Under the pieces are notes generated by a model. It saw only the letters and a program-made list of their open reading frames with translations, had not been told where the DNA came from and searched no databases. Source: Hepatocystis sp. ex Piliocolobus tephrosceles (taxonomy: Eukaryota > Apicomplexa > Aconoidasida > Haemosporida > Plasmodiidae). From it: a stretch of DNA of 30,000 bases. A program made the position numbers and the translations under genes. Below, piece after piece: positions 2 to 21,513 of the stretch. The stretch's first letter is position 1. Each line of letters starts with the position of its first letter. The DNA lies in the NCBI GenBank assembly GCA_902459845.2, contig CABPSV020000007.1, positions 2,501 through 32,500 on the forward strand, written 5' to 3'.

Positions 2-3000
2 CTACACTTCGTCCAATTTTAATTTCAAAAAACAAATAGATTTTTTACAATGGGTTTGCATATATTCATTATACTTTTCATCTGAATATAATTTATTTTT
101 AAAAGAGTAATTTAATAAAAATTGGTAATGGTTAATAGCTTGTGTTATAAAATGTTTATCTTCTACTGTTGATAGTGTTTTACATACATAAAAATATATA
201 TCGAAGTATGATTTTTTTTCTTCCTCGTTTTCGAAAATTATTTGTTCAGTAGTAACTGTGTCAGCTGTAGTGGCTGTATTAGCTGTAATAGCCCTGTCTC
301 GAACTTTTTCAGAAGTATTTAAAAACAAAAAATAATATTTCAATATTTGTAATATAATTTGTTTTAACTCAGTAGATAAATTACCACTAAGATTATCATC
401 AAAATTCATATTTTTTTGTTTATTTTCAACAGTTGAATTGTAATAAATATTATCAATACATGTATTCAATTTTTTACATATATATATATCTTTTAGTAAC
501 ATAGCGCATCTTAAACATAATTCTCTTTTATATGATAGATATTGTTTATGTTCTAAAAATTGTAAAGGATAACTTAAAGAATGTAACATTTCTAAACTAA
601 TTTTTATGTATTCATCAAACGTTTTAGTGAAGAAATTAAAATAAAAATAAACCTCACTTGAATTTAATATAATATCTAAATATATAGTTGTGTGTTTAAA
701 TAAAGAAAAATATTTCAAAGTCTTTTTTTTATATTTTTTTATATTATTAAACAAAAATAAAATTTCGTAGTAATTGTAACACAGCTCATGTATATGGTTT
801 ATGTAATATGGGAAAACAAAGTTTCCGTTATTTCCATTATTATTGTTACAATTACTATCGTACTTTGTCTCTCTCATTGCTCCTCCAATTTGACAAAAAA
901 GAAATTTATCATAATCCCTATCTTCTCTACACTTAGAAAAAGCTGTATATAACTTTTTCATTTTTTTAATAGCCAGCTGTTTATACTTGGTATCGCTGAA
1001 AGTACAAATATTAAAATTCATATTAGTTAACTTAACAACTTGAAATTGAAAAGTTTTTAAAAATTCTTCAACGTTTTTTATATCAATATTAATAAATGGT
1101 ATTTTTTTAATCTCTGTAGAGGTATTCCTCATGTGACTGTCACTGTTAATACTACTATGATCTAAGTCACAACTGTACATTGACATATTTCTGTTTTTTA
1201 TTAAAAAAAATATTCGTTCCATAATCTTGTCAATTTTTTTTACATTGTTATAAAAAATGCTACAAAAGGACATTTGTTCATGCGCATCTTTATCGGTACC
1301 TGTACTTGTACTTGTATCTGCACATGTATTGGGGCCCGGATATGGACCCGAATATACATCTGCGAACTGATTAGTATCACCATTTTCTTCATCTTCCTGT
1401 TCAAAATTCAAAATATTTTTTTTTATAAAATTATGATAAATAAAATTGTATAATGTGTTATTATCTGATATAATATACGAAAGAATATCAACCGAATAAG
1501 CGTTTTTTTTTTTTTCTTCAAATATGTCATTAAAAAAATTATACTGTTTAATATCATGAAATGTATTATAATTTTCTTCTTCTATATGTAATAAATTGTT
1601 TAAATATGTTTCATTAGTTTCTATTTGTTCGTTTATTTTACTATTATTATCATGAGTAAATATCTCCGTTTGGGGAGTATCGTTTTTATTTACTGTGTTT
1701 GTATTTGTGTCACCATTTTTTTGGAAATTAATATTGGCATTAACAATGGCATTAATATTGGCATTAACAATGGCATTAATATTGGCATTAACAATGGCAT
1801 TAATATTGGCATTAACAATGGCATTAATATTGGCATTAACATTGATATTTTCGTTTATATCTACTGTTTCCAAAGAATTCATTTTTTCTAAATCATCCTC
1901 GTTCACTTTTTCTAAATTATTCCCGTTCACTTTTTCTAAATTATTCCCGTTCACTTTTTCTAAATCATCCTCGTTCACTTTTTCTAAATTATTCCCGTTC
2001 ATTTTTTCTAAATTATTCCCGTTCATTTTTTCTAAATTATTCCCGTTCATTTTTTCTAAATTATTCCCGTTCATTTTTTCTAAATTATTCCCGTTCATTT
2101 TTTCTAAATCATTCCCGTTCATTTTTTCTAAATCATTCCCACTCATTTTTCTTTTACATTCCCTATCCAACAATAGCTGTAATTCTTTCATTATTTGCTT
2201 TTCTTGTTTATATATATTTTCCACATTTTTATATATATTTTGTGGTAAATTATTATTTTTTGAATAAATTAAATAATTATATTTTAAATATATTATATAT
2301 GTTTCTAATAAATTTCTATATGTCATATGTTTATATTCAATTAACTTTTTTTTTTCTTTTTTTTGTTTTAATAAATGGAATAACTTGTAAACATCTTTAA
2401 TCATATAAAATGCAACAAAAATCAAATATTCATATATTGACATTAAATGTATATCCAAAAATAAATAGCTACATTCAATTATATTGTTATAAAGAGAAAA
2501 AGACGTTTCGATAATTTTGTTTAATGTATCATTAACCGATACATCTTCTCCTAATACAGTTGTAAACTGACATTTTTCATTAACAATATTATCCCTTTTT
2601 TCATTAATAATATTAACATTATTATTATCACTCAAAACTTTGTTACTATTTATTTTTTTTTCTGTTGATTTATGTTTTGCTCTTATTCTTTCGATGTCGT
2701 TCTCTAATTTTTGTAAATGCAAATCAATACATTTTAATACTAAAAAATTAGATAAGGTATAACGTTTTAATTGTATAAATATATCACTAATGTTTTGAAA
2801 AATTGTTATAAATTCTATATCTACCTGCTTTTTTTGTTCATATAAATTATTATTGTTCTTATTATTATAACTTTTATCGTCACAACTTTCATTTGTGTTA
2901 CCCAATTTTTTAGTACATTTATAAAAAAAGTAACAGTATGTTAAAAAGAATAAAGAAGTATATATATAATTTTTTTTTTTATAAATTATACTTATTTTTT

Positions 3001-4099
3001 TACATATATCTAATAAAAAGTGAGGTACACATATAACATACTCTACCCATTCGTTTTCATTAAAATAAAAGTGGTGTGTTATTTTTTTATTTTTAAAATG
3101 TGTAAAATTGTATAAAAATAAAAGTAAACTTACATATAAAAAATAATTATCATTATCACTTAATAAATATATATTATAATAACATAAAGAAATATATAAT
3201 AAAATTAATTGAAATTCATCATTAATTTTGTTAAAATTATTGTTAAAATTCGTAGGTGTGTTTATTTCTAATCTATTTATTTGTAATTTGTTTATTTTTG
3301 GTTGTGATGAAGTTGTAGTATCTTTTTCTGTACATTCGGTTTTATGTGACTCTTCCTTTTTTTTATTATATTCAACAGAATTAACTGAACGAGGAAAATC
3401 AAAAGAATTATGTACATTATGTACAGTTTGTTCGTGTTCTATATTTTTATTACTCTTTTTTTCTTTTTCCAAATTACGAATTAATAATATTATACAAATT
3501 TGAAAAGCGTAAATAACATCACTACACGTTTTAGCGAAACTGCATTTCTTCGTGTTGTCACTATTAGTAATATATATATTATTCTTACATTTATTAAAAT
3601 AAGTTTCGCTTTTATTATCACCAATATCAGTACCCTTTATACCAGTACCCTTTATACCAGTACCCTGTATACCAACATTAGTCGATACAACATTTGTACC
3701 TGTGTTATCACCCTCGTTTAGGTGATATTTATTTGAATTGTCATTTACAATGTCATGGCACAATTTTTGACTAAACTTATTATCATCAATTTTGTCAAAA
3801 TTATTGAAATTTATATTTTCTGTTTTTATTATTGTTTTATTATGTTTCGTTTCTTTTAAACTGTTTTTTATTTTTTCTATATTTTCTTTTATTAATTCGT
3901 TTTTTGTGTTTTCCTTTTGTTTTTCTACTAATATTTTATATTCCTCATTTTCCTCAATTACCTTTTTAACGAATAAAAAAAAGAAAATTAAATAATTCTC
4001 AACCAAATCGTTCGTTTTTATTGATTTTAAATCTTTTAATGCTTGTAGCTTCCTTTGTAAATCATCTGTCTCTATTTTATAATTTAAGCCTAAATTCAT
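2..4099 (-). CDS. KBP: KIF-binding protein (KBP) homologue, repeat-expanded
   Basis: A single open exon encodes 1365 residues and ends with TAG at 2-4. I start at the ATG at 4097-4099 (MNLGLNYK); the frame continues upstream only through a 97-nt homopolymer that would encode poly-Phe. The C-terminal ~280 residues resemble the KBP C-terminal domain (PF12309). Recognisable segments in order are SYPLQFLEHKQYLSYKREL (near residue 1180), LKYYFLFLNTSEK (near 1255) and INHYQFLLNYSF (near 1325). They correspond to the animal KBP segments around NPQYYL, LKYYQLFLDSL and LEHYKFIVDY. Helical TPR-like stretches lie near 270-400. Animal KBP is about 620 residues, so roughly half of this protein is insertion, including two 8-residue repeat arrays near residues 650-790. 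In animals KBP binds kinesin motor domains and blocks microtubule binding; a similar role here is inference. The match is from memory of the family, with no alignment score. Confidence 0.72.
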   Translation of the reverse strand: MNLGLNYKIETDDLQRKLQALKDLKSIKTNDLVENYLIFFFLFVKKVIEENEEYKILVEKQKENTKNELIKENIEKIKNSLKETKHNKTIIKTENINFNNFDKIDDNKFSQKLCHDIVNDNSNKYHLNEGDNTGTNVVSTNVGIQGTGIKGTGIKGTDIGDNKSETYFNKCKNNIYITNSDNTKKCSFAKTCSDVIYAFQICIILLIRNLEKEKKSNKNIEHEQTVHNVHNSFDFPRSVNSVEYNKKKEESHKTECTEKDTTTSSQPKINKLQINRLEINTPTNFNNNFNKINDEFQLILLYISLCYYNIYLLSDNDNYFLYVSLLLFLYNFTHFKNKKITHHFYFNENEWVEYVICVPHFLLDICKKISIIYKKKNYIYTSLFFLTYCYFFYKCTKKLGNTNESCDDKSYNNKNNNNLYEQKKQVDIEFITIFQNISDIFIQLKRYTLSNFLVLKCIDLHLQKLENDIERIRAKHKSTEKKINSNKVLSDNNNVNIINEKRDNIVNEKCQFTTVLGEDVSVNDTLNKIIETSFSLYNNIIECSYLFLDIHLMSIYEYLIFVAFYMIKDVYKLFHLLKQKKEKKKLIEYKHMTYRNLLETYIIYLKYNYLIYSKNNNLPQNIYKNVENIYKQEKQIMKELQLLLDRECKRKMSGNDLEKMNGNDLEKMNGNNLEKMNGNNLEKMNGNNLEKMNGNNLEKMNGNNLEKVNEDDLEKVNGNNLEKVNGNNLEKVNEDDLEKMNSLETVDINENINVNANINAIVNANINAIVNANINAIVNANINAIVNANINFQKNGDTNTNTVNKNDTPQTEIFTHDNNSKINEQIETNETYLNNLLHIEEENYNTFHDIKQYNFFNDIFEEKKKNAYSVDILSYIISDNNTLYNFIYHNFIKKNILNFEQEDEENGDTNQFADVYSGPYPGPNTCADTSTSTGTDKDAHEQMSFCSIFYNNVKKIDKIMERIFFLIKNRNMSMYSCDLDHSSINSDSHMRNTSTEIKKIPFINIDIKNVEEFLKTFQFQVVKLTNMNFNICTFSDTKYKQLAIKKMKKLYTAFSKCREDRDYDKFLFCQIGGAMRETKYDSNCNNNNGNNGNFVFPYYINHIHELCYNYYEILFLFNNIKKYKKKTLKYFSLFKHTTIYLDIILNSSEVYFYFNFFTKTFDEYIKISLEMLHSLSYPLQFLEHKQYLSYKRELCLRCAMLLKDIYICKKLNTCIDNIYYNSTVENKQKNMNFDDNLSGNLSTELKQIILQILKYYFLFLNTSEKVRDRAITANTATTADTVTTEQIIFENEEEKKSYFDIYFYVCKTLSTVEDKHFITQAINHYQFLLNYSFKNKLYSDEKYNEYMQTHCKKSICFLKLKLDEV
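1730..1850. repeat. 24-bp tandem array inside the KBP-like gene (NINAIVNA units)
   Basis: About five near-identical copies of a 24-bp unit alternate the blocks ggcattaacaat and ggcattaatatt. Read on the minus strand they encode repeats of NINAIVNA. Copies are almost identical at DNA level, which suggests recent slippage or unequal exchange. Confidence 0.9.
1884..2150. repeat. 24-bp tandem array inside the KBP-like gene (LEKMNGNN units)
   Basis: About eleven copies of a 24-bp unit encode LEKMNGNN with variants NGND, NEDD and LEKV on the minus strand. The array sits immediately next to the NINAIVNA array but has an unrelated sequence. The variants are clustered, as expected from local duplication of blocks. 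Confidence 0.9.
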
Positions 4100-4105
4100 A
4101 ATGAA

Positions 4106-4206
<101 letters not shown>

Positions 4207-4264
4207 ATAAATTTAATCAGTTAGCCAGTTAATCAATCAATCTAATCAGCACTATTTTTAATAC

Positions 4265-5207: not shown

Positions 5208-5799
5208 TTATACGTAATCCTCAATTAGCCTATTTAAAAGGTCACAAATGGAAGAATCCTGTTCTTTCATTTTTATTTGTTTATTATCAAAAAAAATAAT
5301 AGCACTTGCCTAAAGAAAAAAATAATAAGTGTATGTATGTTACAATATTTAACAAAAAAAAAAAAAAAAAATCAGTTATAAAAAAAAAGAATTAATTGTG
5401 CATAATAGGACGTTTGAAAAGATTTAAAGCGAAAAAAAAATTCGTGTACGTGTGTAATCACTGTATTCAATTTATTGGCTTTTTATTTGCTTGTTTTAAT
5501 TTTGTACCTGCTGTAATTGCTTTAGGCGAAAAATAAATAAAGAAACAAAAAAAGGATGGTAGTACATAACAAAATAAACTAACTTTAATGTTTGGAAGTA
5601 ATATTTTTTTATTTTATTTTTATTAATTGTTGTATGATTTGTTTCTTTGGCGATATTCACTTTGTGTTCTTCTACTGCAGTTTTCAAATTTATCAGGGAC
5701 GAAATTAAGCAGTCCTGTTAAAAAAAGCAAAAATAAAACAGCAAAATGAAACAACAACATAGAACAACAAAATAGGACAAGGTATAGACATACATACCT

Positions 5800-5835
<36 letters not shown>

Positions 5836-6396
5836 AGGTATGTATGTATGCATGTGTAAGTATATGACTATATATATTATCCACATAGTTAAAAACTAGT
5901 GTAATATGTAAGCATGTAACACATACCTGCATAAATAAAATTTCTTCCTTTTTGAGAATAGATGTAATAACAAAAGAGTCAAACCTTAAAAACAATAAGG
6001 ATGAAATACATAATAAAATTTTAAGACTTAAAAAAAATGTTTTTTGATTTTTTTGAATTTGTTTATTACACACATTATAATAATTATCTTTAAAAACATC
6101 TACAGAAGAATTTTCAATTTCTTTATTTTTGTCATATAACATTTCAAAATAATAATTAAAAAAGAAATTTATACCAAACAAAATTATATTTTTTATATTT
6201 TTTTGATAATATGGATCTGTTTTTGTTTTATTTATATATTCATCTTCACATATTATATAAACAAAATCTAAAGAATGTACTTTATCTATCGGTATATGTA
6301 CTATTGAAACAAAATCGTATGTATTGTTCATAATTTTTTTGATTAAGTTTATATTGCTAGTATTATATTCTTTATAAGAACTATTACCTGTGTTAC

Positions 6397-6432
<36 letters not shown>

Positions 6433-7243
6433 TACTGCTATTACAAATATCACCCAGTTGTAAATAATTCAATACATTAAATATACACTTATTAAACAAA
6501 TTTAATAAAATGTTTACATGTATAACATTTTTCATACTCCTATCAAAAATATATAAAAATAAATTAGAAATAATAATTTTATTATTATAATAACAATTAA
6601 TTTCAACTCTCTTTATAATTAATATTAAAAATTTGAAATTTTGCTTTTTCACACATACACAAAACAGTTCTAATAATTTTACAAAATCATCAATATAATA
6701 AATATGATCATAAGTTAAATAGCTACAAAATAAACATATTAAAGAATTTATTTCTTCATTAAATAATTTTTTAAATTCGATAAAGTCACTTGACCGTTCA
6801 TAGTTTGAGCTGGTGATGATACAATTTCCACTACTACCACTACTAGTATTACTACCACTATTAGTATTACTACCACTACTAGTATTACTACCACTATTAG
6901 TATTACTACCACTACTAGTATTACTACCACTACTAGTATTACTACCACTATTAGTATTACTACCACTATTAGTATTACTACCACTATTAGTATTACTACC
7001 ACTATTAGCATTACTGGTAAAACATTTTTGTATATCTTTAAAAAATTCGATCAATAACTCAATTGATTTTTTTATTTTTGTTATAATTATATAAATATCG
7101 TTTGTATCAAGCGCTTTATTTTTTTCTAACTCCATTTTTGTGCCATCAAATTTATTATTGCAACAATTGGATTCACTAGGCCTATTAGGCTGCTCCCTCT
7201 CCCTATTACTATTATTATTGTTACCATTGTTGTTGTTACCATT

Positions 7244-7298
<55 letters not shown>

Positions 7299-9382
7299 TT
7301 GTCGTTGTTGTTGTCGTTGTTGTTGTCGTTGTTGTTGTCGTTGTTGTTGTCGTTGTTGTTGCCGTTGTTATTATTATTACTGCTGTTATTATTATTATTA
7401 CTGCTGTTATTATTATTGTTGTTACCACTACAATCAATGTCACCCGTTTTCCCTTTCTCATTAGGTAAGCTACTCTCAGGTGATGATGCAAAACCATTTT
7501 TCTTTTTTTCTTTTTTTTTTTTAGAATTTTTACTTGTACTAACATGTAGTTTTACTTTTCCTAAATTATAATTTACCACGTCATATTTATCATTTAATGT
7601 ATAGTTCTGCATAAATGTTATAATTTGTTCAATATTAGTACATATTAGATGAACCATAGACTTAACATGTTTATCAGTAAAAAAGGAATAATTATTTTTT
7701 TTTTTATTTACATAATTTAGAATAGCTTCAAAAAATAAATATAATTCAATATTCATATATGATAAAGGTACTTTAAGAATATCAGATGATTTTTTATTTA
7801 TGTATATAAAATTAAAACAAGAAAAAATAGTTGAATATAAATTATATAAGATTTTTTTTTTTTTTTCATTTTTTATTTTTGTAAATAAATATATAATATT
7901 TGCATAAAAATGATTTATATTATTTTCATCTAACACACTTAGAAATTTTTTTTTATCTATATATATATTTAAATTAATTAAACAATTCATACAAGTAATA
8001 ACATTTTCTTCTCCATAATTTTCGATAATATTATTTAATAAAATAAAATACTGCTGAACAAATTTATTATACGTAAGTTTCAACATAACATTATTTAAAA
8101 AGATTAAAGAAATGTCGATATTTTTAGAATTTAATAAAATATTTAATAAAGAGTGTCTAGTGTAGTTTGCTACTAATTGTTTCGATGTGTTAGTAATGTT
8201 ACAGCTGTTTATTTTATTTTCCCCTTCCTGCTCAGCTTGTTTGACCTCTTTTACCTCTTTAACCTCTTTAACCTCTTTAACCTCTTTAACCTCTTTAACC
8301 TCTTTTACCTCTTTTACCTCTTTTACCTCTTTTACCTCTTTTACCTCTTTTACCTCTTTTACCTCTTTATCATTTTTCTCCTTTTCCCTCTTTTTCTTTT
8401 CTTTATTTATAGCATTTTTAATTAAAATATTTTCTTTTATGATAATAAAAATCATTTCAATTAAACAAATTTTTTTTTTATCATTAAAGGAAAGATCATC
8501 TAACGGATCAATATGTTCATACTCTGTGTCAGAAAATAAATTTTCTGAATTTTCACTAAGAGCCTTGTTACCAGGTATATTAGTTTTATTATGGCTACAA
8601 GATATATCTATTTTGTCAGTTGTAAAATTTCTTTTTGGATTATTTTCACTATTAGTAACTTCTTCATTGTATTTTTTTTTTAAACTTTTATTAAAAAAAT
8701 ACATTTCTACATCAACATCAATATCACTATTTGCATAACTTACATATCGTGAACTAGTAATAATTTCTTCTATTTTTAAAAAAGTTTCTATTTTTAAAAA
8801 AAAAGTTAAACATTCGTAGTAAATTCCATTAAAGTTGTTTATATCTTCGTTACTATCATCACTATCGTCACTACTGTCACTACTGTCATTACTGTCATTA
8901 CTATCACTACCAAGAGCGTCTTTTCCCTTTTCCATATTTTTTATATCTTCCTTTTTATACCCATTTTCTTTTCCTTTATACTTATTTTCTATTTCTATTC
9001 CATTTTTTTGTTTTTGTTTTTGTTCGTGTTTCCATATTTTTTTATTTACTCTTTTTACATAACTTTTATAAAAAAAAAAAATAGCATTAACAAAAGGTAT
9101 ACATTTTTTTATAATTGAATACGTTGAAACAGATATTAAACTATTTATTAATCGCAGAGTAAATAATTTAAATTCATTTTTCGAACGTAATAATAAACAA
9201 AGGAACTCAACATCGATTGCCTTTACAATATTCAGTTTATCATTTTCTTCTAATTCTTTTATGTTTTTTGTTAATTTTATAATATTCGTAAATTTATCTT
9301 TTGTGTTCTCACTTTCTTTGATATTTTTTAAAATCGTTTTTATTTTATTTTTTTTTATATCATTGTATATTTCTTCCATCAT
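5208..9382 (-). CDS. Neurochondrin-like armadillo/HEAT protein, three exons
   Basis: Exon 1 is 9382-5927 (1152 codons; ends ILFMQ before donor gtatgt). Exon 2 is 5714-5508 (69 codons, starting DCLISSLINLK). Exon 3 is 5309-5208 (starting ASAIIFFDNK, ending LIEDYV, stop TAA). All junctions are phase 0, giving 1254 residues. The first ~110 residues are helical and match the start of neurochondrin (PF05536): a leucine/lysine helix, DKFTNIIKLTKNIK, then AIDVEFLCLLLRS, with the expected YECL element following at ~186 after an acidic/serine insert. The rest is helical-repeat sequence interrupted by (KEV)n near 338-379, Asn/Asp runs near 652-727 and SGSNTN repeats near 791-852. Animal neurochondrins are cytosolic and bind membranes and kinases; the role here is unknown. 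The family call is by pattern; any other ARM/HEAT protein is the alternative. Confidence 0.6.
5788..5847. repeat. Perfect 60-bp palindrome in an intron
   Basis: The left arm at 5788-5805 (acatacatacctacttta) is the exact reverse complement of the right arm at 5830-5847. The 24 bases between them are (TA)12, also self-complementary, so all 60 bases form one uninterrupted inverted repeat. It lies in intron 1 (5715-5926) of the neurochondrin-like gene. The intron RNA could fold into a 30-bp stem (minus the turn), and the DNA could extrude a cruciform. Confidence 0.95.
6826..7011. repeat. 18-bp tandem array encoding SGSNTN/SGSNTS
   Basis: About ten copies of an 18-bp unit (actaccactattagtatt and variants) encode alternating SGSNTN and SGSNTS on the minus strand in the neurochondrin-like gene. 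Copies differ by single third-position or Asn/Ser changes. Confidence 0.9.
7204..7425. repeat. Asn/Asp-coding trinucleotide and 12-bp repeats
   Basis: Reading minus, runs of (NNND)n, (ND)n and (NNNNNSS)n come from gttgtcgtt-type units. This is a typical malaria-type asparagine-rich insertion in the neurochondrin-like gene. The other frames are also open here, which creates false long reading frames on both strands. Confidence 0.9.
8244..8369. repeat. 9-bp array encoding (Lys-Glu-Val)n
   Basis: About thirteen or fourteen copies of acctctttt or acctcttta encode KEV repeats on the minus strand. The change from an a-type to a t-type unit part-way along the array marks two successive expansions. 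The array forms a charged linker in the neurochondrin-like protein. Confidence 0.9.
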
Positions 9383-9563
9383 AAGAACATGCTAGTTTGT
9401 ATTATCTATGTATGTATGTATGTATATATATACGCGTGTTAATATACGTGTTAATGTTTATATGTATGCATATTTATACATGTTTATTTGCTCATAATAA
9501 ATTACTCTTTGAGCTCTGCAGTAGTTGTTTATGAAATAATTTTAAAATAGCGTAAAAAAAAAA

Positions 9564-9827: not shown

Positions 9828-9953
9828 TTATCTTAAAGGCCCTTCAAATCCCATCAAAGCTTTTTTTTTTTATGAAAAAAATAAAACAAAATAGAATAAA
9901 TGAAAAAATAAGTGAAAAAGTAAATGTGAATGAACAAGTGAATGTATAAGCAA

Positions 9954-9995
<42 letters not shown>

Positions 9996-11543
9996 GTATG
10001 TACGTAACGTATGTGCGTATATGTAAACATTTTAAAATATAGAACACTAGTTGGTGACTTAAAAAAAAAAAAAATAGACAAAGTATGCTACGACAACACC
10101 ATTATTAAAAATAAAAGTTAGTATTTAATATATGTGCAAACAAAAAAAAAAAAAAAAAAAAAGTATTTATTTCGTGTTTACTCATTCTTTTCTTAGGATC
10201 TTTTGAGCTGTTAAGTTTTTAGAAAAAAAATATATATATATATATTTAAGATAGAAAGTTATATAATGCATTTTATTTAATTTATAATAAAAAGAACATC
10301 ATATTAAAAATAGTTAACTATTACAAAGTTTGTATATGTATATCTATATGTACGTAGCTAGTGATATTTCATTTTTAATATTACTTTTTATTATTTTTTC
10401 CAAAAATAAAGCCTTCATGTGAAGCCTAAATTGAGCAAAATAAAGAAAAACAGCTTATTAATGTATATTAATTCTGTTTTTTTTTTTTTTTTTTTTTTTT
10501 TCATTGTTTATAAAATAGCTTACGTATTTTGAAAAACCTTTACAAAACCAAGCGTGGTTGCGATATTTTTTGGATATGCCTTTGACACTTTAAAAAAATA
10601 AAAAAATAAGTAAATAAATGATTAAACAAAAGAATAATCAAATGCTACATTTTTTTTTTTTTTTTTTAGCATGTCGTAATTTTTATTTTGTTTTTAAGGA
10701 ACAAATGAAAAAAAATATTATCTTCTAACCCATTTGCAGTAGATAACTAAAAATACAAACAACAAAAAAAAAAAAAAAAAAAAGATGATGATGATGATGA
10801 TGATGATAAAAAAAAGACAAAATAAAATATACTAAATAGTACATATACTAAATGGTATATATACTAAATGGTATATATAACAATTCATTGTAATATTCTA
10901 ATTTTTCTTTAATTATTTTCTCGAGTTTATTACTGTAAAATAATCACAGTCTGTCTCTTTACACTTGTCTAAAAAAAAAAAAAAAAGGTTTTTGACTTAA
11001 TATATGACATATATATACATATATATATATATATACATATATAATTCAAATATATACATGTATATTTTACCATATATTTCATCTAAATTTAAAGCCGTGT
11101 CCATTTCGTATATTACTTCATTTTTCTCACAAACACCTACACACATATGAAAAAAAAAAAAAAAAAAATTATATATTTGTTATTATTCTTTTAATAACTG
11201 TACCTATAAATATTTTATATATAACTCTCATCATTTTTTGTTTTTACCTTGCAAGTTAGGGAATATTTCAAAGTTATCAGGTTTATTCCCATCAACTGTT
11301 AAACAAAAGAGAAAAAAAAAAAAAAAAATAGTTCATCCTTTGCTACTTTATTTTAAAGTTAAAAAGTTGTAAAAACAAATTGTATTTTTTTTTTTTTTTT
11401 TTTCCCTTAACTGTAAGACATTTTGATATATATCTGAAAATGATAAAAATATAAAACTTGGATGTAGGTATACATGCTAGTGCAAAAAAGTTTATCATTT
11501 TTATTTAAATACATTAATATTTTTTTCTTTATCATGAGTTCAT

Positions 11544-11594
<51 letters not shown>

Positions 11595-11986
11595 GTATTC
11601 CTTGAAATTACCATAGAGTTTTTCTGTACTCTTGCTTCTTTGTAATAAGAAGAATCACATAATGTGTAACCATCATAATTAAAAATTATGTATACACAAT
11701 TGTTTAAGTTGTTACACCTGACATCGTTGAAATATGTAGAAAATAAAGCAACAACAAAATTATATACATGTATATAATTTTTACTTATTTATTATTTATT
11801 TTTTATTATTTGTTTTTTATTATTTGTTTTTTATTATTTGTTTTTTATTATTTATTTTATTTTTTTTTTCCATTACTCATTTTCTGCTTCGCCTATATCT
11901 ACATATTTTCTTATAAGAAGTGGGCTATCACAGGTTGCAACTCTATTAAATAGCAATATTATCAAATAAGGTATGTTTATAAATAA

Positions 11987-12036
<50 letters not shown>

Positions 12037-13309
12037 AGCAAAGATATATATGTTTATATACGCACGCAACAGTGCCAAGATGTTTAAATCAATTTTTAAT
12101 TTACATATCATTCACGTGAAGATACAACTCTTTTTTTAATGTGTTTCCTATGAAATTCATAAAAAAAAAAAAAAAAAAAATACATATACGTATACATATA
12201 TATATGTATATGTATGTATATATATATATTAAATTTACTGTCGTGATTAAAACTCAAACTGGTTTATTTTTTTAATTGTTTTTTTAAAACCTTCAACTTG
12301 AACATCCCAAATGTTATCGTTTCCTGTTTTGGCCTTAATATTGTCTACGCAAAACATTACATAGAAAATAATAAAGCATATATATATATGTGCGTAAATG
12401 CATAAACGCATGTACGTATAAATATATAAAGGTAACATGTTTTGCACCACTTTTATTTTTTGTAAAAATATTTTTTCTTATTTTATTTTTTTTAAAGTTA
12501 AAAATTGTTTTAATAATAATATACATGGCGGAAAGGAATTTGGCTTAGAAGATACACAAGAATACTTTATTATAAGTTTGTTAAATTTTTTTATCAAAGA
12601 AAGAATTTTAAATGTCTCATTGTTTACACTCATCTTAAAAAAAAAAAAAAAAAAATGGAACGTGATAGAGCAAAATAGAGCATAACAAAAACGGAATAAT
12701 ATAACTAAACAACCAAAAATAAATACGAATAAATAAGTGCGTAAATATATACACATAATATGTATATATTTTTAATTTATACATCACAATCCTCTTTCCC
12801 TTCACACATCATTTGAACAACTGGCAATGTGTGTGGTGCATCCAATGGATCTAAAAAAAAAAAAAAATTAGTTTGTATGAAAAGTTTTCATATTTTTAGT
12901 TATCCTAGAAAGAGAATAATAGATTGCATATATATATATATTTTATATCACATAAACTATAATAAAATGTGACTGTTATACAAATACGTCTGCATAATAT
13001 ATATATATGTGTGTATATATACAACAGATGTGTAATCTCTATACATATTTAACAAATAACAGTATTTATTTAATAACTTTTTTTTATTAAGAAATTCTCA
13101 ACGTATGGTTTTCCATAACTAGCATCTAAAACATGAATGTATTGATTTTTGCTACAAACTAATTTTATATTTTCATTTAAATCTCCACTTAAAATTTTTA
13201 AATTCCCCCCTACAACTTCTTCTATTTTTTTTAAACATTGTGCCACGTAGTTACATAAAGCAAGTATTAAGACAAATAATTTGATTATTGAAAAATAATT
13301 CATTTTCAT
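9828..13309 (-). CDS. Secreted SUEL-lectin-like protein with two 4-Cys modules, about 16 small exons
   Basis: Exons (minus, in order): 13309-13078, 12850-12783, 12633-12525, 12344-12291, 12147-12105, 11942-11877, 11717-11612, 11433-11412, 11295-11248, 11136-11071, 10969-10935, 10746-10730, 10587-10524, 10425-10385, 10207-10182, 9859-9828. All have GT/AG ends and compatible phases, totalling 342 residues. If exon 14 is last, the stop is at 10381 and the protein has 324 residues. The signal peptide is ~1-25 (MKMNYFSIIKLFVLILALC). Residues ~46-128 resemble a SUEL/Gal-lectin domain (PF02140): IKLVCSKNQYIHVLDASYGK, then LPVVQMMCEGKEDCD, then FNKLIIKYSCV. Next come two modules, C-x18-C-x5-C-x12-C and C-x22-C-x4-C-x24-C. 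No membrane segment follows, so it is probably secreted or lodged in an apical organelle (inference). Weak points are the gttttaaa donor after exon 4, the 17-nt exon 12 and the last two exons. Confidence 0.72.
10836..10880. repeat. Intronic tandem repeat atactaaatggtatat
   Basis: Three imperfect copies of a ~20-bp unit based on atactaaat(a/g)gtatat lie in the intron between the 17-nt and 35-nt exons of the lectin-like gene. No coding potential is seen. Confidence 0.75.
11788..11860. repeat. Intronic 16-bp tandem repeat
   Basis: About four copies of ttattatttgtttttt sit just downstream (minus sense) of the 11942-11877 exon in the lectin-like gene. They lie in the intron that begins at donor gtaatg. 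On the plus strand this gives a spurious open frame of Phe/Leu/Tyr. Confidence 0.85.
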
Positions 13310-14582
13310 AAAAAAAATAAAAATAAATAACGTAATAATTATTAAAACGTATAAAAATAACAAAAAGAAATGTGTATATATATATTTTTAAAAAATAGCA
13401 ATTTCTTTTTTTTTAAGTGTTCTCTTGTTAAAATTTTAAACAACTGTTAAATTTGAAGGAGCATATTTAAAACGCTTTTAATGTTTTTTAACACCTACAT
13501 ATTGTTAATACAAACCATATTATACAAATTAAAAAATTTAAGTGTAAATACACAAGCGTGTAGACAATTTATAAAATGAAATATTAATGATGATTTAATA
13601 ATAAAATATAAAAAGAAGGACATTTTGAGTTATTAAAATCTTAATAAGGTGATTTATACTTAAGTTTTACCTTTTTATTTATTTTTTTATTTTTTAAACC
13701 TATGTAGTTTTATAAAATATTTACCACCCCTTACCAACATCATTTAAAATAAAGCCTTTTTATTTAAAAAAAAATATAGAATGCATATTATAACGTGTTA
13801 TAATAAGTTCTCAGTTGTAGTAATAAAATGTATATTTTTACATACACATTAAATATGTGAAACATTTAACATGCGAAATGAAGTAAAAAAATAAATTGAA
13901 TATATATTTTGAACATTCATGATGGATATAAACATTTACTAAGTAAGAATTAAACAAATTACAACATAAATGTAATTTTTTTTTTTTTTTTTTAATTTTA
14001 ATAAATATAAAAACAGATGAATTTCTTCTATCACAAAAAAAAAAAAAAAAAAAAAAAAAAAATGTTTATGACATGTATATATATAATTTCAAAAATTGTA
14101 TAAGGATATAAAATATACTGGCTTATAAACATAAACAAAAACTACTTTTATGTATGAGCAAAAAAAATAAAAGTTACCTTGATATTTTATTATTTACATA
14201 TTAATAAATTTAAACAGTTCTTTCTTTCTTAATATATATGCGCATGTGAGTATTTATCTACATACATGGAAACCCATAATTATAAAGATATTTAATTTTT
14301 GCTTTAATTGATTTATCCGTTTAATATACATGGTATAAATTTAAAAGAGATAAAATATTTTTATTAAACGTAATAATGGTTTCTAGGTATATTAAAAATA
14401 AATAAATAAATAATATAATATAATATAATAATAATAATAATATAATATAATAATAACAATAACAATAATAATAACAATAACAATAATAATAACAATAATA
14501 ATAGTAATAATAATAGTAATGATAATAATAGTAACATAAATGTTTTATATATAATATGAAACATTAAATTTTATAATAAAAT
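13310..14582. promoter_or_regulatory. Divergent promoter spacer (lectin-like gene / RPP21)
   Basis: A 1.27-kb spacer lies between two head-to-head genes and must hold both promoters. It contains poly(T) at 13978-13993, poly(A) at 14034-14061 and a (TAATA)n/(AATAAC)n microsatellite at 14398-14540 just before the RPP21 start. A possible untranslated or tiny first exon on the minus strand (ATG ATG TTG followed by gtaagg, near 13730) could belong to the lectin-like gene's leader, but it is weak. No other gene was seen. Confidence 0.65.
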
Positions 14583-15340
14583 ATGTATAATCCTGAAAGT
14601 AAAACAGAGGGTGCTAATGAAACAAATTCATCAAAAAATAATGAATACTGTGACAAACTAAAAAATAAATTAAATGACTTAAGTTCAGTTAAAAATTGCT
14701 CAAATATACAATTTAATAATAATGTAATTTTGGCTAATGATGACAAGACAATAACAAAAAAACACGAAGAGGATGGTAGTATTGAAATCAGTAGTTTTGA
14801 ATATTTGGTTAATCAAGCAAATATCCCTCAAACGAATAACGTCATTTTAAATAAAAATGGAAAAACGAACGGACCTAACATGAACACAAACGCAAATACG
14901 AACAAAAACGCAAACACAAACACAAACACAAACACAAACACAAACATAAACACAAACACGAACAAAAACACGAACAAAAACACGAACAAAAACACGAACA
15001 AAAACACAAACACAAACGCAAATACGAAGGGACCGAATATAAATAAAGGAAATAAAAAAAAAAGAAAAAAAAAAAACAATGATAACTACAATTTGTCAAC
15101 ACCAACAAAACAAATGGTTAGAATAAACTATTTATTACAGGCATCATTTTTAGTTAACAAGTTTAATCCCACTATATCTAGAAGATATATTAAAACTATG
15201 AGAAAATTTTCTAATAAATGTTTAATAAAATATGATAAACCATTCAAAAAACTATTTTGTAAAAAATGTAATACTGTTCTTATTCCAAGTGAAACTTGCA
15301 ACGTTTCTGTTAATCCATTAAACTTACAAAAAAAAAAAAA

Positions 15341-15392
<52 letters not shown>

Positions 15393-15764
15393 GATAATAA
15401 TATTAACAGTAATAATAATAATAACGATAATAATATTAACAGTAATAATAATAACGATAATAATATTAACAGTAATAATAATAACGATAATAATATTAAC
15501 AGTAATAATAATAATGATAATAATATTAACAATAATAATAATAACAATAACGATAACGATAATAATAATAACGACAATAATATTAACAATAATAATAATA
15601 TTAATAACATACATGACGATTCTTTAATTATAAATGATCATTATGCTTCTAAACCAAGACACGATTTTTTAGTAAATTATAAGTGTAACCACTGTCAACA
15701 TAACACAAAACTTGTTTATGATAACAAATTAAATACTCCCAATGAAAACAAAACTGACACATAA
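14583..15764 (+). CDS. RPP21: RNase P/MRP subunit Rpp21/Rpr2
   Basis: A single exon of 393 residues starts MYNPESKTEG and ends NENKTDT. The conserved part begins near residue 178 with MVRINYLLQASFLVNK, then SRRYIKTMRKFSNKCLIKYD, and the first zinc knuckle LFCKKCNTVLIP (Cys226, Cys229) followed by ETC (Cys239). The second knuckle, YKCNHCQHNTKLVY (Cys368, Cys371), completes the Rpr2/Rpp21/SNM1 zinc ribbon (PF04032). In other eukaryotes this protein binds RNase P RNA in the nucleus and helps 5' processing of pre-tRNA. Other Rpp21 proteins are about 150 residues. The excess here is an N-terminal acidic stretch, a T/N/K repeat (~100-150) and a ~90-residue Asn/Asp/Ile/Ser insert between the knuckles. 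SNM1-type MRP subunits share the domain, so Rpp21 versus Snm1 is not fully settled. Confidence 0.87.
14878..15033. repeat. Six-base repeats encoding NT/NK runs in RPP21
   Basis: The repeat acaaac (NT) alternates with acgaacaaaaac (TNKN) and encodes an Asn/Thr/Lys-rich linker before the lysine stretch. Codon use in it (aac, acg) is richer in C and G than in the surrounding gene. Confidence 0.85.
15341..15608. repeat. Asn-rich tandem repeat within the RPP21 zinc ribbon
   Basis: A run of aat codons is followed by about five copies of a 30-33-bp unit encoding NNNNDNNINS, then degenerate N/D sequence. It lies between the two CxxC pairs of the zinc ribbon. Confidence 0.92.
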
Positions 15765-15938: not shown

Positions 15939-17007
15939 CCACTATGTGTACAACTGCACACATTTTGTTTACCGGCCCACCTTTATGCCTTTCAAATAAT
16001 AACAAATGCAGAATTAATAAGCAACCTACTACTCATAATTAATTAGCTGTGTTTTTATAAAATAAATATAAAGTGAAATTATTAATTTTTTTTTTATAAA
16101 GAACATTTGTAACAAACCATTTTTTAAAAAACTTAAACTGTAGTAAAGGTATAAATATTTAATTATTTAATTAGGTTTTTTTTTTTTTTTTTCTTTTTAT
16201 AAAAATTAAAGTTTTCACAATTTTCTGCATTTTTTAATTTATTCTCAAATAGAAATATAAAAATACTAAATAATGCTTGTTTCGTATTTAATGTTTATTA
16301 CATTTTTTTATCAAATTAACTTTATACAAAAAAGAAAAAAAAGCAAACAAACTTAATACCTCATTATAATTAATATACATTTCTCTCTCTATATATGTAT
16401 ATATACATTTATATAAGCACCGAAATGAATATACGACATTTTTTTGCTATAGAAATTCATAAGAACAATTTTTTTATATCAAAACGTTATTGTAATTTCC
16501 CATAAACATTTTTTATAAATATGCATTTGTTCCTTCTGATATATATGTATTGGTGAACATTAATAAATTTGAGTTACATCATATATATATATATATATAT
16601 ATAGACATATGCGATATCTAATTAAATAAAAAAAAGAATTTTTTTTTTATAAAAACTAAATGGTAAATTTTATAATTTAAAAAAAAAAACATGAATGAGT
16701 AATATATTTTTTTTTTTTTATGCTCAAAATTAAGCCACATTAAAAGCTAGCTATTTTTTTTTTTTTTTTTTTACAACTATGCAACATGTTTATAAAGTGT
16801 ATTGATGTGTTTTTATAATATTTCTACTTTTACTGATATAACAGTTATAAGCCCCAAAATATTACATTATAATTTCTCAAAATATTTTTAATTGCATATA
16901 GTTATTTTATAACGACGCATTTCTACACACATATATTTATATATATAAGGAAGGGAAAAAAAAAAAAAATTTCTTTATATAAATTGTCATGAATAAAAAT
17001 CATTAAC
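15765..17007. promoter_or_regulatory. Intergenic spacer, RPP21 to the Lys-rich gene
   Basis: This spacer carries the RPP21 3' end and the promoter of the Lys-rich gene. It includes (TA)n at 15898-15921 and 16580-16601 and several poly(T) runs. It also holds a distinctly less AT-rich block at about 15938-16050 with a near-palindrome, tgtgtacaactgcacaca, and the string accggcccacc. No coding sequence was seen. Confidence 0.7.
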
Positions 17008-20000
17008 ATGGATTTGACAGATAAAGTGAACCAAGATCAAATGGTTGATCATAAAAGCGAAGGACAAGAAAATACAACAGTAAATGAAATTCAAAATGAA
17101 AGCTTAAAAGCTATAGGTGAAGAAGAAAAGAATGCAAGTACATTAACAGATAAAAATTTAGTAGAAGTTGTTAATGATGTTGTAACTAGTGTTGTAAATG
17201 ATGTTGCAAATAATATTGTAAATGATGTTGCAAATAATATTGTAAATGATGTTGCAAATAATATTGTAAATGATGTTGCAAATAATGGTGTAAGTGGTGT
17301 AAACTTAAACACGAACGAAAAATCAACAGAAAGTGTTGAGATTAAAAATAACGAGATAAACTTGGATAACACAAATGAACCAACATTTGTGAAAACAACT
17401 GCTGAAAATAATAGAGTTTTAAGTAATGAACATTTGAGTAACGAAAAAACCATTTCAAGCTTTAATTCTTTAGAAAATGAAAATAATAACAAACCACGAA
17501 ATGGGTCATTATTTATTGAAGTTAAAGGGCTTTTAGAAATTGTTAACTCTAAAGAATTCATAAAAAATATGAATGCAGACAAGTTATATATAAGTACAAA
17601 AAATGAAAGTATGAATATTAAGAGCAAACGTTCATTCAGTGTTCCAAATAAAGTAATACCAAAAAAAGCAGACACAAAAAAGTTAGTTTCCAACGTAACA
17701 GCTCCAAAAACTGCTTCCAAACAGAATCTTAAACAAATTATAAGAGCACCTAAATTAGAACATGTCCCAAAAAAAGCTCCTTTGTTAACAAAACCACTCG
17801 AAAAAATACCACAAACATTAAACAAAAATCGTATTTACAAAATTGAAAATTTGGATAAAAAAATAGATCCTACTAAAGCAAAAAATGCTATTAGATATTC
17901 ACCTAAAAAACCGAATGTTCTGAAAGATTCAAAAATTAAATTAAAAGAACCAGTTAGAGCAAAGTTTGCACTGTCTTCAAAAACTGATAATGAAGGAATT
18001 CCCCCAAATATGAATCCTTTGGAAGCAATAAATAAAACTGCTATGAGATTATCTAATAAAAGTGTCCCTTTATTAAATAAACATAAAGGTATCAGTATCA
18101 AAGCAGAACCACCTAAAGGCAGTTTAAAAAATACATTACGTTATTTAAAAAATGCTATAGAAATGAAAAATGGTGAAACTGCATCTGCGAAAGTAAAAAC
18201 AGATATAATAAATGACAATAAAAATAAAAAGGATATTCCATCAAATAATAGCAAACCTACAATGAGAAGAAAAACTTTATCAAAAAATTCCACAATTAAA
18301 GGTATATCTACTAAAGCAGTTAAAGGATCATTAGAACCGAAATCAAGAAATTTATCAAAAAAAACAATTTCCAAAACATCAAACGAATTAAAACTTAAAG
18401 ACAAAGAAAAAAAAAAAAATATATTACCTAAAAATGCAAAAGATAATAAAGAACGATCGTCGTTTAAACAATTGGAAAAAAATGATACCAATAAATCAAA
18501 TGAAAAAAAAACGAATACTGATACAATCGTAAGTGAAGGAAATGAAACAAATGATAAAAAAGTTGAAGTAGTTGATGAAGTAGTTGGTGAAGTAGTTGGT
18601 AAAGTAGTTGATGATAAAGAACAAAAGGAAATAAATACAGATAATAAAAATGAAGATGGACTTGAAAATGAAAAAGACAACAAAACATCAACGGATAATG
18701 AAAAATGTACTGAAACAGAAATTAATGTAAATGAAAAAGAAAATGTAGATGTAGAAAAAACGCAAACATTGTGGGATAATAATAAGGATACTGATGTTGT
18801 AAAAGAAGATGACAAACCAGATGATAAAGAGAATTCGAACATAGAAAAGGTTACTGATCTATTGTTCCAGATTGACAACAATGAATCTGAAAAGGTAGAT
18901 CAAATGGATGAGCAAAAAGATGGACAGAAGGAGGAACAACTGGGCGACCACACTGAAGAGCCAAAGGAAGGTCAAGCTGAAGAGCCACAGATGGATCAAA
19001 CTGAAGAACTACAGATAGATCAAACTGAAGAACCACAGATAGATCAAACTGAAGAACCACAGATAGATCAAACTGAAGAACCACAGATAGATCAAACTGA
19101 AGAACCAAAGCCAGAGACAGAGACAGAACCAATGCTAAAGGAAAAACAACAAACAGAAAAAAAAACCGATAAAAAAATAGAAAAAAAAAAAGGGCCCGAA
19201 AAGAAAAAAAACATAACTGAAAATATAAAAGAAATAAAAAAAACCAAAACTATAAGTATAAAGCAGACCCCCAAAGTATCATTGGATTCGAAAATGGCTA
19301 TAAAGAACCCTTTGAACTTAAAACATAGTATGAAAGCTGATTTTGTTTTAAAAAGTAGATCAACAATTAAAACTAGTAGTCTACTTCTTAAACCTAAAAC
19401 AAATATTAACATAAATTTAAAAAATAAAAAGAGTTTAAATAATGAGAAAAGTAATAATGTTTCAGAAAAAAGTATCACTAACAAAAGTGTAATACCAAAA
19501 CCATTAACAAAAAGCACATTAATTGCAAAAAAATCCAGCATGGTAAAAAAAATTCTTTCAACTGGAATTTCTGTAAAACAGAACAATTCAGATAAGAAAA
19601 AAGATATAAAAAAAATCAATACATTAAATAATATTAAAAAATTAGAAACAAAACGTATGCAAGAAGATTCAAAAAATAATAAAACAAATTCTGAAAATGT
19701 TACTGCTATAGATTTAAAAAAAACAAATTCTATTTCGAAAAAGGAACTAATCAATAAATCAAAAACTGATAACATTTATGAAATGCTTTCAAATAAAACC
19801 AATAACATAAAACCTTTTAAATCTGAAAATTATAAAAGTGAATTAGAAAAACAAAAAGGTATTAACAAGTTTGATTTGAAAATCGATGGAGTTAATTTAA
19901 AAAAGAAATCCTCAACTCTAAAAAAATTCATGTCGAGTAAAAAAATGAATACCTTTGCTTCAAATAAAAGCCCTTCTGTAGTTGCAGATAGTGATAATAA

Positions 20001-21513
20001 AAGTAACGATTCACAAAAAAAAAAACGGGAAATGATATCGAAAAAAATTAGTAGTGTTAAAATAGATGGTCCTATAAAAAAATTGAAATCACTTAAAAAA
20101 CAAAAAAGTAGTAATAAATCAGATAAAAATAAAAACCAAGATAATAATAGTATTGTAATAAATAGAAATGACAAAATATATAAAAAATTATCAAAAGTAA
20201 TTAGTTCTAAATTACTAAAATCTACTACTGCCGTTTCTGCTGTTACTATGTCTTCAATGAAATCGGATAAACAAGATAAAAGGTTTAAATCAGCAGCATT
20301 ATTAATTAAAGCAAGTACTACTGGAACTAAAAATAAAGATAAAAAGAATTTAAAAAGAAGTAAAACTACAAATAAAACTACAAATAAAACTACAAATAAA
20401 ACAACAAATAAAACAACAAATAAAACAGAAAATAAAACATTAAATGGAAATAGTGATAATATATCAGAAATAACAAATGAAAATTCTATAAACGAATTAA
20501 CATTAAAAACTGATAGTAAACGTTCTACTGATCAAATAAAAAATAAATATTTAACACCAAAACTTAAGTCAAACAAATCCGTTATTTCTAATAAAACATC
20601 AAGAAGTGAAAGTTCATATAATTCAAATAGAAGTGCTTCACAGTCAGCTTCTCAATCTGCGGCACAGAAAAAAGTATTAAAAAAAAAGAAAAAGAAAATG
20701 AGTACCAATGCAAATGATGATTCTAATAAAGATATCACAAGCAATACAGATGTTGTAAAAGATATTATTACTACTACAATTGATGATTCAAATCAAAATA
20801 CTACACCAAATATATGTAAAAATGAAAGTACCTTAAGTATACCCGTATCACCAATGTCAAATAAAGATAATTCAGATAAAAAAAATAGTACGACCGAATT
20901 TAAAGAAAATGAAATTAATCCATTTATGAACTTAAAAAATATTTCTTCATCATTTGTTTACGATCAACCTAAACCAAAAAGCACAACAAGAAACTCATCT
21001 TGTAATACAAATTTGGAAAATTATAATAGACAAAATAAAAATATAAATAGTTTAAATTATAATAAAGAATTAACAATGAAAAGATCAAATGAAACGAAAA
21101 AACAATCAAATTGGATATTTAATAATTGTTGTTCTTCAAATGTAGATACTGATAATAATAATTATTATTCTGATAGAAAAGAACCTATTATACAAAATTA
21201 TAGTTCACTTTTTAATGTGCATAATAAATATATACCAAAAGACTTAGTTCCTCAATTAGTACAGGAACCAAATAACACTATGAAAGTATCTGAAATTTAT
21301 GTTTCGAATATTTTAAAAAATAAGATGGTGAGTTCGGTAAGTACAAAAAAATTTTCAAAATCTTATACAAATGGGTTAAACGATTTGAATAAAAATCGTC
21401 AAATGAATTTATATTCATCTAATCATTCTAATATAGGATTGGAAAAAAAGAGAATTTTTAATTGTAAAAGTCCATCATGTTTTGCATCAGTAAATTATTG
21501 TAGTTGTATTTAA
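17008..21513 (+). CDS. Large Lys/Asn/Ser-rich protein of unknown function
   Basis: One uninterrupted exon of 1501 residues starts MDLTDKVNQDQ and ends NYCSCI, stop TAA. I recognise no catalytic domain. Composition is very rich in Lys, Asn, Ser and Thr, with two basic halves (~190-500 and ~700-1240) around an acidic middle (~500-710). Repeat arrays are NDVANNIV (~64-95), QIDQTEEP (~660-700) and TTNK (~1120-1140). There are no signal peptide or membrane segments. The C-terminal ~180 residues are less biased (SSFVYDQPKPK, EPIIQNYSSLFNVHNKYIPK, DLVPQLVQEPNNTMKVSEIY) and end in a Cys cluster, CKSPSC...NYCSCI. Such a protein could be a cytoskeletal or microtubule-binding scaffold, but that is guesswork from its charge. 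I chose the first ATG because the upstream region is pure spacer and the N-terminus is of normal composition. Confidence 0.88.
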   Translation: MDLTDKVNQDQMVDHKSEGQENTTVNEIQNESLKAIGEEEKNASTLTDKNLVEVVNDVVTSVVNDVANNIVNDVANNIVNDVANNIVNDVANNGVSGVNLNTNEKSTESVEIKNNEINLDNTNEPTFVKTTAENNRVLSNEHLSNEKTISSFNSLENENNNKPRNGSLFIEVKGLLEIVNSKEFIKNMNADKLYISTKNESMNIKSKRSFSVPNKVIPKKADTKKLVSNVTAPKTASKQNLKQIIRAPKLEHVPKKAPLLTKPLEKIPQTLNKNRIYKIENLDKKIDPTKAKNAIRYSPKKPNVLKDSKIKLKEPVRAKFALSSKTDNEGIPPNMNPLEAINKTAMRLSNKSVPLLNKHKGISIKAEPPKGSLKNTLRYLKNAIEMKNGETASAKVKTDIINDNKNKKDIPSNNSKPTMRRKTLSKNSTIKGISTKAVKGSLEPKSRNLSKKTISKTSNELKLKDKEKKKNILPKNAKDNKERSSFKQLEKNDTNKSNEKKTNTDTIVSEGNETNDKKVEVVDEVVGEVVGKVVDDKEQKEINTDNKNEDGLENEKDNKTSTDNEKCTETEINVNEKENVDVEKTQTLWDNNKDTDVVKEDDKPDDKENSNIEKVTDLLFQIDNNESEKVDQMDEQKDGQKEEQLGDHTEEPKEGQAEEPQMDQTEELQIDQTEEPQIDQTEEPQIDQTEEPQIDQTEEPKPETETEPMLKEKQQTEKKTDKKIEKKKGPEKKKNITENIKEIKKTKTISIKQTPKVSLDSKMAIKNPLNLKHSMKADFVLKSRSTIKTSSLLLKPKTNININLKNKKSLNNEKSNNVSEKSITNKSVIPKPLTKSTLIAKKSSMVKKILSTGISVKQNNSDKKKDIKKINTLNNIKKLETKRMQEDSKNNKTNSENVTAIDLKKTNSISKKELINKSKTDNIYEMLSNKTNNIKPFKSENYKSELEKQKGINKFDLKIDGVNLKKKSSTLKKFMSSKKMNTFASNKSPSVVADSDNKSNDSQKKKREMISKKISSVKIDGPIKKLKSLKKQKSSNKSDKNKNQDNNSIVINRNDKIYKKLSKVISSKLLKSTTAVSAVTMSSMKSDKQDKRFKSAALLIKASTTGTKNKDKKNLKRSKTTNKTTNKTTNKTTNKTTNKTENKTLNGNSDNISEITNENSINELTLKTDSKRSTDQIKNKYLTPKLKSNKSVISNKTSRSESSYNSNRSASQSASQSAAQKKVLKKKKKKMSTNANDDSNKDITSNTDVVKDIITTTIDDSNQNTTPNICKNESTLSIPVSPMSNKDNSDKKNSTTEFKENEINPFMNLKNISSSFVYDQPKPKSTTRNSSCNTNLENYNRQNKNINSLNYNKELTMKRSNETKKQSNWIFNNCCSSNVDTDNNNYYSDRKEPIIQNYSSLFNVHNKYIPKDLVPQLVQEPNNTMKVSEIYVSNILKNKMVSSVSTKKFSKSYTNGLNDLNKNRQMNLYSSNHSNIGLEKKRIFNCKSPSCFASVNYCSCI
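17197..17292. repeat. 24-bp array encoding NDVANNIV
   Basis: Three exact and one diverged copy of the unit aatgatgttgcaaataatattgta lie near the 5' end of the Lys-rich gene. They are preceded by a related degenerate unit encoding NDVVTSVV. Confidence 0.92.
18987..19106. repeat. 24-bp array encoding QIDQTEEP
   Basis: About five copies encode Q(I/M)DQTEE(P/L), with more degenerate relatives just upstream (EGQAEEP, GDHTEEP). The unit is acidic, contrasting with the basic remainder of the Lys-rich protein. Confidence 0.92.
20365..20430. repeat. 12-bp array encoding TTNK
   Basis: Five copies of a 12-bp unit (actacaaataaa / acaacaaataaa) encode TTNK in the Lys-rich protein, ending with a diverged TENK. 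Confidence 0.9.

Follow-up and report, generated by a model that had tools for sequence, protein, structure and literature searches.

A sixteen-exon Hepatocystis gene for a secreted-looking SUEL-domain protein with two possible PAN/apple-like modules

The stretch of DNA analysed here (the window) comprises 30,000 nucleotides (nt) of contig CABPSV020000007.1 of Hepatocystis sp. ex Piliocolobus tephrosceles, whose genome assembly is 12.4 Mb in 611 contigs, AT-rich and Plasmodium-like. It carries a minus-strand gene, 13309–9828, in which 16 exons joined in frame give a predicted protein of 342 amino acids followed by a stop. Exons are 17–232 nt long and introns 98–322 nt, all 15 introns have GT..AG ends, the phases are all compatible, and the guanine-plus-cytosine fraction is 0.29 in exons vs 0.17 in introns. 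The chain was built from a three-frame reading of the minus strand, splice signals and phase; exons 12 and 16 were fixed with the help of related proteins and are not independent of them. A 15-exon draft (341 residues, with exon 12 read through and exon 16 absent) served as the query in the search for relatives and in the PF02140 and Pfam scans of the product. The first-pass annotation had proposed about 16 exons of 17–232 nt with GT/AG ends and compatible phase over 9828–13309, and a product of 324–342 residues; the final model agrees with it on each of these points.

Exon 1 (13078–13309, 232 nt) encodes the signal-peptide-like N-terminus, as judged by hydropathy, followed by the opening stretch of the SUEL domain (LVC...SYGK). 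The domain continues through exon 2 (12783–12850, 68 nt), which contributes LPVVQMMCEGKEDC, and ends in exon 3 (12525–12633, 109 nt; KYSC), the PF02140 match supporting all three, with motif columns added for exon 2 and alignment for exon 3. After a linker in exon 4 (12291–12344, 54 nt), a four-cysteine region that we call module 2 begins in exon 5 (12105–12147, 43 nt), takes C173 with a strand and helix from exon 6 (11877–11942, 66 nt) and C192, C198 and C211 from exon 7 (11612–11717, 106 nt), and ends in exon 8 (11412–11433, 22 nt); exon 9 (11248–11295, 48 nt) spans its junction with module 3. Module 3 receives C252 with a strand and helix from exon 10 (11071–11136, 66 nt), C274 and C279 from exon 11 (10934–10968, 35 nt), and C304 from exon 13 (10524–10587, 64 nt). 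These assignments draw on alignment for exons 6, 7, 10, 11 and 13, on structural models for exons 6, 7 and 10, and on structure matches for exons 5–11 and 13. Exon 12 (10730–10746) is a 17-nt micro-exon, LSTANG, set from the relatives. Exons 14 (10385–10425, 41 nt) and 15 (10182–10207, 26 nt) lead to exon 16 (9828–9859, 32 nt), which encodes the C-terminus EGPLR and the stop and was matched to the C-termini of relatives. Exons 6 and 10 are equal in length, both phase-symmetric, and each supplies one module with its first cysteine together with a strand and a helix; this resemblance is a possible trace of exon duplication.

The draft product recovered 15 relatives (1987 candidates drawn from 5.8 billion sequences) with E-values from 1.7e-148 to 3.6e-84, and because of these matches we conclude that the predicted exon chain is real and not a product of chance. 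Identity to the relatives is 53–67% for the draft and 54–68% over aligned residues for the final product. Twelve are from Plasmodium (ovale, malariae, relictum, chabaudi, gaboni, gonderi, gallinaceum, vivax twice, vinckei, berghei and cynomolgi). The remaining three, here P0010, P0012 and P0013, are encoded on contigs of 1310–1388 nt, which are probably spliced transcripts, since the intron-bearing gene occupies about 3.5 kb here. In a tree of the window protein and 14 relatives (the 230-residue fragment P0015 was excluded) these three group on their own branch, and the window protein sits next to those of the rodent malaria parasites, a placement that is weakly supported (85/89). The P. gaboni relative, PGSY75_1327100, leads by shared numbering to the slot PF3D7_1327100, of which the window gene, judged by sequence, is the ortholog. 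It is also single-copy in its own genome, where all seven scored matches to the P. relictum protein fall inside it. A profile search for remoter relatives returned the same 15 among 5387 candidates, a search limited by length and shared five-residue words, so that absence elsewhere does not follow from it. PF02140 found no match in the parasite's own genome or in 14 control genomes, which is uninformative because introns split the domain. Databases annotate the family with a SUEL-type lectin domain and give its function as unknown; the gene is thus known but uncharacterised, and the earlier description of it as hidden does not hold.

An alternative is that the chain is an artefact or merges two genes. 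Eight of the 15 public models have ends unlike that of the window model, as this alternative would have it, but the relatives span all modules as a single protein, the contigs of P0010, P0012 and P0013 are too short to hold introns, and exon 16 encodes a conserved C-terminus (EGPL or EGAL plus one residue in 7/15, the other eight models ending differently). We regard this alternative as having a negligible chance of being correct. When the final product is aligned with the 15 relatives, the surroundings of all 15 junctions, to about five residues either side, are free of gaps in P0010 and P0013, and P0012 shows a single gap there, at the exon 4/5 junction, which is weakly conserved (0–5 of 10 residues identical across 15 rows). 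Gaps at later junctions occur in P0006, P0008, P0009, P0011, P0014 and P0015, and additionally at junctions 3 and 4 in P0014. Among the public models, those of P. vinckei lentum, P. berghei, P. cynomolgi and P. vivax Brazil I appear to be cut short or to keep intron sequence, and those of P. ovale, P. malariae, P. gonderi and P. vivax India VII lack the last-exon C-terminus (rows P0009, P0011, P0014, P0015, P0001, P0002, P0006 and P0008). The P. berghei and P. vinckei models go astray near the 17-nt exon 12.

Membership of the N-terminal domain in the SUEL family, which the first-pass annotation had placed in exons 1–3, was confirmed with HMMER: PF02140 scores 32.3 bits on the draft product against a cut-off of 31.4, and 38.4 bits on relative P0003, and the Pfam domain is precomputed for all 15 relatives. 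In the structural models the domain is predicted to adopt the rhamnose-binding-lectin (RBL) fold. All four SUEL cysteines are kept in 15/15 relatives; across the 16 aligned rows (window protein and 15 relatives) SYG is invariant and CEGK..C is retained throughout, as CEGR in two. The GTY motif of rhamnose-binding lectins shapes the sugar pocket. It is absent from all 16 rows, whose alignment columns read K/T, then D/E/K, then F in every case. The DPC cysteine is likewise lost in 16/16, and the KYL lysine is kept in one row (P0012) and is otherwise H, R or N. Malaria P113 of P. falciparum has two RBL-like domains without GTY, which the authors of its structure judged unlikely to bind rhamnose (PMC7482062). 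Because GTY is missing from all 16 rows, as in P113, sugar binding is doubtful, and the protein is unlikely to be a classical rhamnose/galactose lectin. Given the three motif losses, the SUEL surface would be expected to bind protein rather than rhamnose, with the putative apple domains described below as possible glycan or protein binders. The label lectin-like in the first-pass annotation thus fits the fold, but the motifs oppose ordinary rhamnose binding.

The second half of the protein was earlier described as a duplicated four-cysteine module. The spacing C-x18-C-x5-C-x12-C given for the first copy is exact (18-5-12 in module 2), but that given for the second, 22-4-24, is one too many in its first gap (21-4-24 in module 3). 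All four cysteines of module 2 are conserved in 15/15 relatives. The first three of module 3 are cysteine in all 14 of the 15 rows that reach them, and the fourth is cysteine in 11/15, alanine in one (the P. cynomolgi prediction) and a gap in three. In structure searches with two AlphaFold2 (AF2) models, modules 2 and 3 match PAN/apple proteins, each being recognised in one of the models; among the best matches is the apple-type SML-2 of Sarcocystis, solved, by title, with a galactose analogue. Low-confidence as these models are, they suggest that both modules may be PAN/apple-like domains. The claim of duplication therefore stands for the cysteine pattern and, within these models, for the PAN/apple-like fold of both copies, but does not extend to profile similarity between them. 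Weak Pfam matches in the relatives were to DUF7654 (3/15, best E 0.0094) and CR_prot_dom_plant (1/15, E 0.28). Matches to PspGI and antitoxin chains (E 0.26–0.43) were dismissed as chance.

We also considered whether the protein might consist of three tandem SUEL domains, as in SUL-I. The motifs CNNL..C and CKET.C superficially resemble CEGK..C of SUEL, and in Foldseek, model 2 aligns with SUL-I over 216 columns and with CSL3 over 215. However, profile comparison of SUEL with modules 2 and 3 aligns 15 and 12 columns only (probability 0.2% and 4.7%), the Pfam scan of P0003 finds a single SUEL stretch, and both modules match PAN/apple structures. This arrangement is very improbable, and it was dropped on the profile comparison and the PAN/apple matches.

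The same evidence bears on whether the protein is a true sugar-binding lectin, with glycans bound by the SUEL domain and by at least one of the apple domains, e.g., on mosquito midgut or parasite surface glycoproteins, after secretion by the ookinete. A SUEL score above the Pfam cut-off, the retention of SYG and CEG[KR]..C, and the structural match to SML-2 would favour such a role. Set against them are the loss of GTY, of the DPC cysteine and, in 15 of 16 rows, of the KYL lysine, and the judgement on P113; we consider this role unlikely.

The suggestion that the protein is secreted draws support from hydropathy, the measure by which the putative signal peptide was judged. The best 19-residue value in the window protein is 2.11, at residue 8, and maxima for segments starting in the first 35 residues are 1.24–2.33 in 15/16 rows; the other row, P0012, reaches 0.08, and its predicted start is possibly wrong. 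The protein is thus secreted-looking, both by hydropathy and by a signal-peptide filter applied to its likely P. berghei ortholog (see below).

Gene order gives the link to that ortholog. A plus-strand open reading frame (ORF) adjoining the gene, 14580–15764, encodes an RNase P subunit Rpr2/Rpp21 domain (PF04032, 49.4 bits) with long asparagine runs. Beyond it, ORF 16993–21513 (+) encodes 1506 lysine-rich residues matching two uncharacterised proteins, from P. ovale curtisi (31% over 71%) and P. berghei (38% over 15%). SPM3, a microtubule protein of 1,795 residues in P. falciparum, is PF3D7_1327300/PBANKA_1342500 (PMC9973338), and the 1506-residue ORF fits it in position and size. PF3D7_1327300 lies two numbers above PF3D7_1327100, and PBANKA_1342300 two below PBANKA_1342500, so that by gene order PBANKA_1342300 is the likely P. 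berghei ortholog of the window gene. On the other side, ORFs 5798–9391 (−) and 2–4216 (−) are long and single-frame with in-frame repeats of KEV, NTNSGS and GNNLEKMN types; the former has no Pfam match at E ≤ 1, and the window contains no tRNA and no Rfam match.

PBANKA_1342300 is listed in an ookinete crystalloid interactome, for LAP3 at row 12 of 50 and for TPM2 at row 27 of 31. Entries in these lists were filtered for a signal peptide, for transcripts higher in sexual than in asexual stages and in females than in males, and for a two-fold gain on crosslinking (PMC7487766). These filters agree with a secreted female-gametocyte protein. From gene order and this published pulldown of the likely ortholog, we infer association with LAP proteins and expression in females and ookinetes. 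A different possibility is that the protein acts in blood stages, at the merozoite or vacuole, in red-cell invasion or vacuole architecture in the manner of P113 or RIPR. It is hard to reconcile with the list filters just described, and a P. falciparum piggyBac mutant linked to PF3D7_1327100 was able to grow as a blood stage, grouping with the K13 cluster of raised artemisinin susceptibility (PMC4635350); viability alone is drawn from this mutant. We judge a blood-stage role of this kind quite improbable.

Taken together, we favour, with a probability of roughly 0.5, a secreted soluble ortholog of PF3D7_1327100 with a signal peptide, one SUEL and two PAN/apple-like domains, acting in the LAP complex as an adhesive protein of female gametocytes and ookinetes. 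The analysis shows directly the gene structure, the orthology, membership of the SUEL family, the conserved cysteines and the absence of GTY. We hypothesize that the protein would be made in female gametocytes, fold with disulfides in the endoplasmic reticulum of the zygote or ookinete, and accompany the LAP complex on its way to the crystalloid, and that its domains might serve as protein- (or glycoprotein-) binding surfaces within that complex. Crystalloid residence, direct partner or binding, role and mechanism are things we only infer.

Several observations weigh against this adhesive LAP-complex protein. The AF2 models are weak (mean pLDDT, a per-residue confidence score, 52 and 54), with one module recognised in each; the Pfam scan of the 15 relatives shows no PAN family at E ≤ 10, although weak matches are discarded by the filters of HMMER; and modules 2 and 3 show no similarity to each other in hhalign. 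None of the matches of the 1506-residue ORF is named SPM3, and the identity of PBANKA_1342300 rests on gene order, with no printed cross-reference. P25, P28, P47, G377, CTRP and CelTOS are surface, osmiophilic-body or microneme proteins. They too appear in the interactome lists (PMC7487766), and because the lists include proteins of other sites, co-purification with LAP is no proof of crystalloid residence; the company of P25, P28 and P47 also lends something to the sugar-binding role considered above. In the main text of that paper PBANKA_1342300 is named in two tables only, other proteins having been tagged, and its mutant score from oocyst to salivary gland is 0.01, i.e., not reduced; according to the authors, heterozygous rescue masks such screen phenotypes, LAP mutants included (PMC7487766).

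A bolder version is possible rather than probable: this SUEL and double-PAN/apple protein, found only in malaria parasites and in P0010, P0012 and P0013, might be a structural part of the crystalloid complex that has so far gone unrecognised, in which a pocketless lectin fold with microneme-type apple domains forms a protein docking platform in the mosquito stage. As far as the literature searched goes, what is new is the reading of both modules as PAN/apple, the absence of the sugar-pocket motif and the link to the ookinete interactome. No description of a SUEL-fold domain joined to PAN/apple modules was found in the searches made of open-licence papers; Plasmodium papers on SUEL, judged by title, did not deal with the window gene, the term SUEL being absent from the main text of PMC4053738, and those on rhamnose-binding lectins with Plasmodium and ookinete were unrelated by title. 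The novelty claimed earlier has to be qualified, as the fold is already present in P113 and in PfRIPR, which has two such domains (PMC10794152). No function has been assigned to the gene, although every Plasmodium species returned by the search keeps it. With the domain reading and the interactome link, what was a conserved protein of unknown function becomes one whose mosquito-stage role can be tested. Several public gene models also look truncated.

Known systems resemble the window protein in part. SML-2 of Sarcocystis, TgMIC4 and the Eimeria PAN module appear, in the models, to share the fold of modules 2 and 3, whereas sequence similarity to these lies below Pfam detection, and none is known to carry a SUEL domain. 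The lectin domain of latrophilin/LAT-1, among the closest known systems (8suf, 2jx9, 5afb), belongs to a large animal cell-surface receptor, unlike the window protein. The LAP/CCp crystalloid proteins likely share its pulldown complex, as well as a signal peptide and female-upregulated transcripts, but they are LCCL-domain proteins, whereas the LCCL domain has no Pfam match in the draft product (E ≤ 1) or the 15 relatives (E ≤ 10). The N-terminal region of P113 (6z2l) is, like the window protein, a malaria example of the RBL fold without GTY, but contains an adjacent pair of these domains, and the terms apple and PAN domain are absent from the main text (PMC7482062); with P113 and RIPR, the window protein joins the malaria proteins with a lectin fold. 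Within the PF3D7_1327100/PGSY75_1327100 family it is only 54–68% identical to the 15 relatives, which do not include its species, but it is a full-length ortholog that shares their modules and cysteines.
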